Assembly (NCBI GenBank): GCA_947482115.1
Contig: CANKII010000003.1
Coordinates: 1 to 64,000, forward strand
Length of the DNA: 64,000 bases
Reading direction: 5' to 3'
From: Fibrobacterota bacterium
GTDB taxonomy: Bacteria; Fibrobacterota; Fibrobacteria; UBA11236
Under the pieces are notes generated by a model. That model saw only the letters and a program-made list of their open reading frames with translations, did not search any database and was not told the DNA's origin. Shown in pieces: positions 7,676-58,355 of this stretch; position 1 is the first letter of the stretch, and every line of letters begins with the position of its first letter. The translations under genes and the position numbers were made by a program.

Positions 7676-8125
7676 ATGTTCAACCTGAAAAAATCAACGT
7701 TCGCCTTTTTACTGTTCCACACCATTGCCATCCACGCTGGCGGCACGGACTCCCCCGTGGGACGATGGAAAACCTTTGACGATGAAACTGGAAAGGCCAA
7801 GTCCATCATCCGTGTCTATGAAGACAAAGGAGTTTTGTTGGGAAAGATCGATTCCCTGCTTCCATGGCCCGGAAAAAGTCCGGACCGAGTTTGTGAAGCC
7901 TGCACGGATGATCGCAAGGGCAAACCCATCCGTGGCATGATGGTGATGTGGGATTTACATGCGAAAGGATCGACCTGGGAGAATGGCCGCATTCTCGATC
8001 CGGCAAGTGGAAAAATCTACCGCTGCCGCATTGCGCTGGATCCCGGAGGAAAGTCACTCACCGTCCGCGGCTTCATCGGGATTTCACTTTTGGGAAGGTC
8101 GCAGAAATGGGAACGGGTGGAGTGA
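7676..8125 (+). CDS. DUF2147 family exported protein
   Basis: A 149-residue periplasmic protein with a signal peptide (residues 1-22) and the DUF2147 pattern: VGRWKTFDDETGKAKSIIRV, then DRVCEACTDDRKGKPIRGM, then GRILDPASGKIYRC and GFIGISLLGRSQKWERV at the end. The family's function is unknown; many members sit in envelope operons. The SD is AAGGAG upstream of the ATG. Its TGA stop codon is the first triplet of the repeat that starts the DUF559 unit. Confidence 0.85.
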   Translation: MFNLKKSTFAFLLFHTIAIHAGGTDSPVGRWKTFDDETGKAKSIIRVYEDKGVLLGKIDSLLPWPGKSPDRVCEACTDDRKGKPIRGMMVMWDLHAKGSTWENGRILDPASGKIYRCRIALDPGGKSLTVRGFIGISLLGRSQKWERVE

Positions 8126-8688
8126 CACCCCATCCCCCGCCTTGTCTCCATCGTGTTCGGCACAAGTCGGCGGACCCTTCCCCTCTTGAGGGGAAGGGAA
8201 TGAAAGACGATTCATCTTCGACAACACTATGAAAGAGCAATCATACAGCCGAATTTCAGGGAGACATCGACGATTGAGTGAGGCCGACAAAGCTGTTATT
8301 TCACAATTGAGAAGAAACCCGACGATGGCTGAAAAGCATCTGTGGGAACTTATTCGCAAGGATCAAATTTTAAACATTCGATTTCGTCGACAACACAAAA
8401 TTGGACCTTACATCGTCGATTTCTATTCCATCAAAATCCGTCTTGCGATTGAGGCCGACGGAGAAATACACACGCTCCAAACTGAGCAAGATGAAGAACG
8501 CACAAAATGGCTCAAGTCAATGGGTATTCGCGTCCTACGGTTTCCCAACGAAGAGATTCTCACTCGCCCCGAGATCGTTCGCAAGCAAATCGAACTTGCA
8601 GTTTCCGAACAGTTACACTGACTTTGTTTTCTCTTTTGCCGCTCCCCCTTCCCCTCAAGAGGGGAAGGGGTTTGGGGATAGGGTGACA
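8123..8688. mobile_element. Candidate small mobile unit: DUF559 gene in inverted repeats
   Basis: The ends are near-identical inverted repeats: TGACACCCCATCCCC at 8123-8137 and GGGGATAGGGTGACA at 8674-8688 (13 of 15 match). Each end also has an inner perfect hairpin of family 2 (CCCTTCCCCTC/GAGGGGAAGGG at 8175-8198; CCCCTTCCCCTC/GAGGGGAAGGGG at 8645-8670). The only gene inside is DUF559. Non-coding relatives of the ends occur at 43754, 47184 and 58237. Mobility is inferred from structure; no target-site duplication was identified. Confidence 0.5.
8229..8621 (+). CDS. DUF559 (Vsr-like) endonuclease-domain protein
   Basis: A 130-residue protein with the DUF559 pattern: RNPTMAEKHLWELIR near residue 32, IRFRRQHKIGPYIVDFYS near 55, LAIEADGEIH (acidic catalytic-type segment) near 73 and GIRVLRFPNEEIL near 98. 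The fold is related to the very-short-patch-repair endonuclease. No mismatch-repair partner lies nearby. The gene is tightly bracketed by family-2 palindromic repeats, which makes it a candidate nuclease for their mobilisation; that role is inference. Confidence 0.85.
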   Translation: MKEQSYSRISGRHRRLSEADKAVISQLRRNPTMAEKHLWELIRKDQILNIRFRRQHKIGPYIVDFYSIKIRLAIEADGEIHTLQTEQDEERTKWLKSMGIRVLRFPNEEILTRPEIVRKQIELAVSEQLH

Positions 8689-40779: not shown

Positions 40780-40896
40780 CTCGATACAAACGCCGGTCAC
40801 TGAGCTTGTCGAAGTGTCGGCGGTCACTCGACGAGCGGTTCTTCGTAAATTGAACGAAGGAGCGATGGCCGAGTAGGCCTGAAAGGCCGTATCGAG
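40780..40896. repeat. Composite palindromic repeat bounded by CTCGATAC/GTATCGAG
   Basis: Outer inverted ends CTCGATAC (40780-40787) and GTATCGAG (40889-40896) enclose family-1 sequence (GGTCACTGAGCTTGTCGAAG) and further hairpins CTTCGT/ACGAAG and GGCCT/AGGCC. It fills the gap between the DUF393 start and the amgK-like stop codon and has no coding potential. The layout resembles a MITE or a cluster of nested REP-like elements. Confidence 0.75.
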
Positions 40897-42775: not shown

Positions 42776-43828
42776 ATGCCTCCCGCATTCAAATCTTCTT
42801 CCAGTGCTCCATTGCTGCGGGTCGAGAATCTGTCACTTGGTTTTAAAGCCAATGGCAAGGTGACACCCGTGACCGAGGGCGTGACGTTTGAAGTCAGGCC
42901 GGGTGAGGTGTTTGGACTGGTCGGCGAATCCGGCTGCGGAAAAACCGTCACCTGTCTGGGATTGCTCCGCTTACTCCCCAAAGTCGGCAGCGCTGTATTA
43001 TCGGGACAGGCAATGTTCGAGGGAAAAGATTTGCTGCACATGTCCGATGAGGATTTGCGTTCGGTTCGCGGCGCGGAGATCGCCATGATCTTTCAAGAAC
43101 CTTCGGCGGCCATGAATCCCCTGCTGCCCATTCGCAGCCAGCTATTGATGCCGTTTAAACACCATCCTTACAACGGCGACCCGGAAGTGCGCGTCACGAA
43201 ATTGTTGCGTCGTGTCGGTTTTGCCGATCCCGAACTCGTGTTGAAATCCTATCCGCATGAACTTTCCGGCGGCATGTTGCAGCGCGTGATGATCGCCCAT
43301 GCTTTGCTGTTGCATCCGAAATTATTGCTGGCCGACGAACCGACGACGGCTTTAGACGTCACCGTGCAGGCGCAAATTCTGGAGTTGCTGGCAGAGATGC
43401 AGCGAGAATCCGGCCTCAGTGTGGTATTGATTACGCACAATCTGAACCTCGTGGCGCAATACGCCAGCCGCGTGGCGGTGATGTATGCGGGACGGGTGGT
43501 GGAAGAAGCACCGGTGGCGGATTTTCTCGACAACGCGAAGCACCCCTATTCGCAGGGTTTACTGGAAGCACTGCCCCGACTGGATGAAGCCGCGCATGTC
43601 CCAAAACCGATTCCGGGTTCCGTGCCATCAGCGGATAAATATCCGAGCGGTTGCCGATTTCGCGATCGCTGTCCTTATGCCTTTGATCGCTGCACCGTTG
43701 TTCCACAGTGGACTGAAATCAGTCCGGGTCATCGCGTGGCCTGTCATCTGTTCCCTCACCCATCCCCCAGCCCCCTTCCCTCTCCATCGGTAGCGATGGA
43801 GAGGGAAGGGGGGAAGGGGGTTAGGTGA
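42776..43828 (+). CDS. Peptide ABC transporter ATPase, second OppD-type
   Basis: A 350-residue ATPase. Walker A GESGCGKT, Q-loop IFQEP, signature ELSGGMLQR, Walker B LLLADEPTTALD and the C-terminal CRFRDRCPYAFDRC motif are all present. The last ~22 residues (HPSPSPLPSPS...) are encoded by a family-2 palindrome and are probably not native. The stop codon overlaps the next gene by GTGA. As with the first pair, no permease is adjacent. Confidence 0.92.
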   Translation: MPPAFKSSSSAPLLRVENLSLGFKANGKVTPVTEGVTFEVRPGEVFGLVGESGCGKTVTCLGLLRLLPKVGSAVLSGQAMFEGKDLLHMSDEDLRSVRGAEIAMIFQEPSAAMNPLLPIRSQLLMPFKHHPYNGDPEVRVTKLLRRVGFADPELVLKSYPHELSGGMLQRVMIAHALLLHPKLLLADEPTTALDVTVQAQILELLAEMQRESGLSVVLITHNLNLVAQYASRVAVMYAGRVVEEAPVADFLDNAKHPYSQGLLEALPRLDEAAHVPKPIPGSVPSADKYPSGCRFRDRCPYAFDRCTVVPQWTEISPGHRVACHLFPHPSPSPLPSPSVAMEREGGKGVR

Positions 43829-43830
43829 GG
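43754..43830. repeat. Palindromic repeat family 2 at the oppD/oppF junction
   Basis: The ends are CCTCACC and GGTGAGG; inside, CCCCCTTCCCTCTCCATCG pairs with CGATGGAGAGGGAAGGGGG around GTAG. The element encodes the last residues and stop codon of the OppD-type gene and the GTG assigned as OppF-type start, so it has rebuilt the junction between two genes. Confidence 0.85.
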
Positions 43831-47183: not shown

Positions 47184-47296
47184 CCTCACCCCTAGCCCCT
47201 CTCCGTCTCTTAAAAAGATGGAGAGGGGAAGGTCAATATTTTTTGCGTTTCTCCCCTCTCTATTCCTTTAAGAATGGAGAGGGGGCGGGGGTGAGG
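47184..47296. repeat. Palindromic repeat family 2, two tandem hairpins
   Basis: The ends are CCTCACC and GGTGAGG. Inside, two imperfect hairpins (CCCCTCTCC...GGAGAGGGG and CCCCTCTC...GAGAGGGGG type) are separated by an AT-rich spacer. It is intergenic between the divergent M32 and adenylate kinase genes, 113 bp, and must lie at or near both promoters. Confidence 0.85.
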
Positions 47297-58236: not shown

Positions 58237-58355
58237 TCACCCCACCCGTTTGCACCCTCTCCTCTTGAGAGGAGGGTGTTTCACATGGGTCATAAAACCT
58301 TGAAAATCGAGTCCCCTTCCCCTCAAGAGGGGTAAGGGGCTGGGGTTGGGGGTGA
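58237..58355. repeat. Palindromic repeat family 2, two hairpins upstream of CDF operon
   Basis: The ends are TCACCCCACCC and GGGGTTGGGGGTGA. Inside are CACCCTCTCCTCTTGAGAGGAGGGTG (overall palindromic) and CCCCTTCCCCTC/GAGGGG-TAAGGGG. The element ends 4 bp before the TTGACA box of the next operon. Confidence 0.85.

Follow-up and report, generated by a model that had tools for sequence, protein, structure and literature searches.

DUF559 nuclease genes between inverted hairpin ends: a candidate family of REPIN-like mobile elements in several bacterial phyla

REP-like palindromes are common in bacteria, and the locus considered here raises the question of what might spread them. It lies in a 64,000-nucleotide stretch of Fibrobacterota DNA (the window), where a DUF559 gene stands between palindromic ends that also occur alone. 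Published work distinguishes REPs with RAYTs, TIRYTs with TIRs sharing GGGGWSAS, and CGTC REPs, a large superfamily reported without a known or dedicated mobilising enzyme (Di Nocera and colleagues; PMC3733652). From the sequence alone it had been proposed that the gene sits between terminal inverted repeats and two perfect hairpins, in a REP/RAYT-like architecture with a Vsr-like nuclease in place of a Y1 transposase. The arrangement at the locus is indeed of this kind:

8126..8142, plus strand: left outer tail CACCCCATCCCCCGCCT, adjoining the upstream TGA stop; inverted match to 8674-8685
8175..8198, plus strand: left hairpin CCCTTCCCCTC-TT-GAGGGGAAGGG
8229..8621, plus strand: DUF559 (PF04480) gene for a predicted Vsr-like PD-(D/E)XK nuclease of 130 amino acids
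8645..8670, plus strand: right hairpin CCCCTTCCCCTC-AA-GAGGGGAAGGGG, reverse complement of the left hairpin
8671..8685, plus strand: right outer tail TTTGGGGATAGGGTG

The gene product belongs to DUF559, matching Pfam PF04480 in a profile search with an E value of 8e-34 and a score of 116.3 bits against a curated cut-off of 20.6. Both hairpins are perfect and are exact reverse complements of one another over 24 nt, and the hairpin pattern occurs three times in the window versus none expected from shuffles; near-copies of the right hairpin, up to 98% identical, occur elsewhere in the genome. The outer tails CACCCCATCCCC (8126-8137) and GGGGATAGGGTG (8674-8685), compared in inverted orientation, agree at 11 of 12 positions. 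The unit thus delimited, 8126-8685, measures 560 bp, and each of its two inverted ends consists of a hairpin and an outward tail, the left end being atypical in that 37 nt separate tail from hairpin. The window tails end in GGGTGA, and those elsewhere are close to YYGGGGGTGAGG.

Non-coding relatives of these ends, which had been noted at 43754, 47184 and 58237, are real, and comprise one single hairpin and two two-hairpin units:

43755..43830, unstranded: solo hairpin with tails CTCACCCATCCCCC..GGTTAGGTGAGG, without a gene; the genus relative G001 lacks the hairpin at its orthologous site
47184..47296, unstranded: gene-less two-hairpin unit CCTCACCCC..GGGGTGAGG, subfamily GAGAGGGG..GGGGTGAGG; absent at the orthologous G001 site
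58237..58355, unstranded: gene-less two-hairpin unit TCACCCCACCC..GGGGGTGA; its hairpin family is that of the window element and also that of the ends of the DUF559 locus L003

The 2.72-Mb genome (15 contigs) was surveyed by searches and by the stretches around their matches. It holds three DUF559 genes, each enclosed by inverted hairpin ends, so that genes without flanking repeats, which would have spoken against the sequence-only reading, were not found. Related ends without a DUF559 gene occur at no fewer than 18 places. The repeat unit is a GC-rich hairpin with an outward tail. Two such units in inverted orientation around a short spacer make the gene-less element (about 75-150 bp overall), which is the REPIN plan, and the same two inverted units around a DUF559 gene make the gene-bearing form. 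Well-preserved gene-less units of about 100-150 bp read TCACCCC-tail, TT-loop hairpin, a spacer of tens of nucleotides, AA-loop hairpin and a tail ending in GGGGTGA. Aligned with the gene-less L018, the right end of the L003 element agrees in 52 of 57 columns, the inner 13 nt within the hairpin among them; for the third DUF559 element (L002) no solo copies of the ends were found in the genome. Hairpin stems vary with compensation: 14 compensated cells were counted where shuffles give 3.9, and none of 500 shuffles reached 14. No Rfam model matched these hairpins at gathering thresholds. That the left end of the window element begins exactly at the stop codon of the upstream gene holds true, the TGA at 8123-8125 adjoining the tail, but this is not special to the window copy, because at 14 of 36 element edges a long open reading frame stops 0-3 nt away; abutting a stop codon is a general property of the elements in this genome. 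A second dispersed repeat, CTTCGACAGGCTCAG, is nested in several DUF559-type elements (L006, L010, L033 and the left end of L003); in L033 the right hairpin contains it, and its core is also present once at window position 40800.

The architecture recurs well beyond this genome. Profile searching gave about 45 strong DUF559 matches in the phylum itself, and scanning named genomes added 23 DUF559 loci, from Bacteroidota, Chloroflexota, Planctomycetota, SAR324, Alphaproteobacteria and candidate phyla. Flanking inverted repeats scoring at least 16 were present at 44 of 62 evaluable DUF559 loci versus none of 1,218 control windows set elsewhere in these loci, beyond the element itself, and at 16 of 20 loci in the cross-phylum set; at 18 of the 62 a detectable inverted repeat was missing. 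Hairpins number 2.1 per kb in the flanks versus 0.11 per kb elsewhere in the same loci, an approximately 20-fold difference. An alignment of ends from mixed families aligned badly and was dropped in favour of a one-family alignment and an exact pattern. The end that recurs across bacteria is CCCCTCTCC-nnn-GGAGAGGGG followed by YYGGGGGTGAGG, with tails that mostly read GGTGA or GGTGGG. On these sequence comparisons, the DUF559 gene with its hairpin unit looks like a family of tiny mobile elements present in several phyla and sometimes lying inside genes. An end type combining GCCCCCTAAATCCCCC with a hairpin and GGGGACTT surrounds DUF559 genes both in the phylum of the window and on a cyanobacterial plasmid (L058, L063, L154), hinting at possible transfer between phyla.

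Another explanation is that the palindromes are REPs moved by Y1/RAYT-type transposases, with DUF559 a passenger. The tail motif does resemble TIRYT ends, GGGGWSAS being compatible with GGGGTGAG (PMC3733652). The end pattern GAGAGGGGN{0,5}GGGGTGAGG, searched exactly in 168 genomes of the phylum, was found in 19 of them, and the reversed control pattern gave one match in all among the matches listed. A Y1 gene is present in 15 of the 19 pattern-bearing genomes; a strong DUF559 gene is present in 15 of the 19 and in 11 of the 149 others. Repeats in relatives that lack DUF559, named beforehand as an observation that would tell against the link, were seen only weakly: where a strong DUF559 gene is present the pattern occurs in 15 of 26 genomes, and where it is lacking in 4 of 142 (Fisher p 2e-11). 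The association persists at genus level (p 5e-5), a test that controls genome relatedness only partly, and within the Y1-free stratum (p 4e-4); that between Y1 and the pattern is much weaker (p 0.006). None of 23 evaluable Y1 loci has flanking inverted repeats scoring at least 16 or the tail pattern, and the Y1 transposase profile (PF01797) has no match in the genome of the window or in three genus mates, two of these four genomes being repeat-rich. The repeats follow DUF559 far better than they follow Y1. In this genus the passenger explanation is largely refuted, and overall we judge it very unlikely.

Comparison of filled and empty sites, a check that had been proposed with the original reading, bears on mobility. 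Of the orthologous G001 sites of three intergenic copies, two are without the element and one is without the hairpin, with divergence blurring the joints; at the site of the window element itself the upstream neighbour is not conserved in G001, and there is no clean joint. Sharper cases are the methyltransferase genes of cyanobacterial plasmids, in which both forms stand at one position in orthologous genes. In Synechocystis B12 DUF559 elements lie within a DUF1156 methylase gene and within a PglX-like methyltransferase gene; at the same PglX position Pseudanabaena galeata has a gene-less element of about 96 bp, and Planktothrix and Oscillatoria have neither form. A second gene-less copy in the Pseudanabaena PglX-like gene has no counterpart in Synechocystis. 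The DUF1156 gene of Synechocystis also holds a gene-less copy, which Nostoc and Planktothrix lack. No target duplication is evident at these in-gene joints, the intergenic G001 sites being too diverged to judge; about 12-15 nt of target appear replaced, in comparisons of diverged homologues that leave the joint uncertain by a few codons. Among Azospirillum plasmids, the strains found all carry the DUF559 locus, and there is no empty site among them.

In Escherichia coli the DUF559 gene ycjD lies between sapF and fabI, in a region recovered from 3,334 of 5,426 genomes, and a clear unit is present only downstream of it (L152, L159). As an empty-site case ycjD was set aside: the two ycjD-less lines examined have other genes in its place and offer no clean joint. 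The hairpin-tail repeat CGGTCCCCTCGCCCCTCTGGGGAGAGGGTTAGGGTGAGGGG downstream of ycjD is present in 5,110 E. coli genomes, at 1-6 copies each (median 3), and was seen at ypfG-tkt, zntA-tusA and yjdP-phnP; at ypfG-tkt the ycjD-type repeat is polymorphic, but alternates with another REP. An extra gene at zntA-tusA in strain TC_EC10 (L200) is not DUF559: the site holds a gene for a small predicted membrane protein and BoxC-like repeats where other strains carry the DUF559-type repeat. Because 18 of 62 loci are without the inverted repeat and ycjD has its unit only downstream, some members are domesticated, decayed or were never mobile.

The in-gene copies bear also on another explanation, in which the hairpins serve the host as bidirectional terminators or stabilisers of mRNA and are kept between genes, while DUF559, a gene for mismatch repair or defence, lies among them by chance. 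Copies adjoin stop codons, often between convergent genes, and the Caulobacter DUF559 protein VsrA affects genome integrity and causes a DNA damage response when a cytosine methyltransferase is missing, for which mismatch repair was proposed (PMC12907096). This explanation, however, leaves the inverted matching ends in many phyla, with none among 1,218 controls, unaccounted for, and copies within genes, with their filled and empty sites, do not readily fit a role as terminators; it is disfavoured, and we regard it as most improbable.

An AlphaFold model of the window protein is confident (pLDDT 89.6), and its best matches among solved structures are Neisseria gonorrhoeae NGO0050 (3hrl) and the homing endonuclease I-Bth0305I (3r3p), with Vsr (1cw0, 1vsr) weaker; I-Bth0305I, with a Foldseek E value of 4e-5, is the closest solved structure with a named function. 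D64, E75, D77 and H81 are each retained by at least 63 of the 65 DUF559 proteins compared. The modelled fold and these acidic and histidine residues place the protein among predicted Vsr-like PD-(D/E)XK nucleases, and the near-invariance of the four residues argues that nuclease activity has probably been kept.

The reading we favour, with moderate confidence, is that 8126-8685 is a gene-bearing REPIN-like mobile element of a kind present in many phyla, whose own nuclease would cut its ends, whose copying would be completed by repair, and whose gene-less forms would be mobilised in trans. The DUF559 protein would recognise its own ends by their extruded hairpin and their tail, and would cut or nick there or at a target; repair of the break would then leave a copy of the element at the target, in most cases at the end of a gene. 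Gene-less copies would be internal-deletion derivatives. No Vsr-type nuclease is known to join DNA ends, which counts against this reading, and host repair must therefore be invoked. What the comparisons show is the association of gene and repeats, the architecture common to both forms, the conservation of hairpins and nuclease residues, filled and empty sites within genes, and no evident target duplication; the nuclease as agent of spread, the recognition of hairpins and the repair-based copying are what we infer. Against this reading also stand the 18 loci without a detectable inverted repeat, the downstream-only unit of ycjD, the four DUF559-free genomes with the end pattern, the L002 ends without solo copies and the weak Y1 correlation.

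The main rival to mobilisation is homing into repeats: the palindromes would spread by other means, and DUF559, as a homing endonuclease, would cut gene-less copies and have its gene copied in by repair, so that the gene travels only between existing palindromes. The match to I-Bth0305I fits this, as does the PglX position that is gene-less in one plasmid and filled by a DUF559 element in another; the four DUF559-free genomes likewise retain their palindromes. Homing does not explain, however, how the palindromes dispersed in this genus, where no Y1 transposase was detected, and close tracking of DUF559 by the palindromes is not expected from it. We consider it unlikely.

Placed beside known systems, such an element resembles REPIN/RAYT (REPtron, TIRtron) in that a gene lies between two inverted units of hairpin and tag, gene-less copies made of two units are numerous, sites fall at the 3' ends of genes and between convergent genes, and no target duplication is evident. 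The palindromes flank the gene in inverted orientation and also occur alone and as inverted pairs, as in a REPtron, and to this extent the REP/RAYT-like architecture first proposed is supported. The enzyme differs, being a predicted PD-(D/E)XK nuclease (PF04480) unlike the HUH/Y1 transposase of RAYTs (PF01797, no matches), and so do the ends, which carry GGGGTGA(GG) and are tagged YYGGGGGTGAGG, whereas REPs have GTAG at the hairpin foot; one DUF559 end family, moreover, is recognisable across phyla. The comparison is apt in the sense of "works like", not of membership, because the genus is without a detectable Y1/RAYT and the repeats track DUF559 better than Y1. CGTC-tagged REPs (PMC3733652) share hairpin repeats, a one-sided tag and the lack of a Y1 partner, but differ in tag sequence, none of the DUF559 tails being classed as CGTC-tagged. 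I-Bth0305I and the VSR-like homing endonucleases share the predicted catalytic fold and a selfish nuclease gene, whereas the DUF559 element is without an intron, lies between hairpins and has many gene-less dispersed copies. Vsr, the very short patch repair endonuclease, is similar in fold, but the DUF559 gene has a mobile-like context, and no cytosine methyltransferase was recognised beside it among the open reading frames listed at the window locus. MITEs, too, are short gene-less copies whose inverted ends resemble a gene-bearing element; the DUF559 elements differ from those of DDE transposons in that no target-site duplication is evident at the in-gene junctions and no DDE transposase was identified for them. 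PATEs are a possible analogue.

A GIY-YIG nuclease gene in the same genome (L212, G000:C4:246756-246971) has a 31-nt inverted palindrome, CGGTCGTTTCGACAGGCTCAACGACCGGTCT, on its flanks. Among GIY-YIG loci of the phylum, 3 of 25 score at least 16, and others have shorter inverted repeats of the TGAGCTTGCCGAA type, suggesting a possible parallel nuclease-plus-palindrome element.

No published link of DUF559 or Vsr to such repeats was found in the literature searched, which was without preprints and most subscription journals; the DUF559-palindrome family looks undescribed, and a prior description is possible. More tentatively, these elements may form an autonomous class in many phyla whose sole protein is a Vsr-like nuclease acting on hairpin ends, and which could be the source of much of the unexplained GC-rich palindromic repeat load of bacteria (CCCTCACCCC..CCCCTCTCC and relatives), with GIY-YIG genes and their own palindromes maybe a second, parallel class. 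A widespread palindrome family is here linked with one particular nuclease gene, and the fold of its product has no known role in driving transposition. The origin of such repeats thereby becomes testable, and the association suggests that hairpin-based genome parasites may have arisen with different nucleases.
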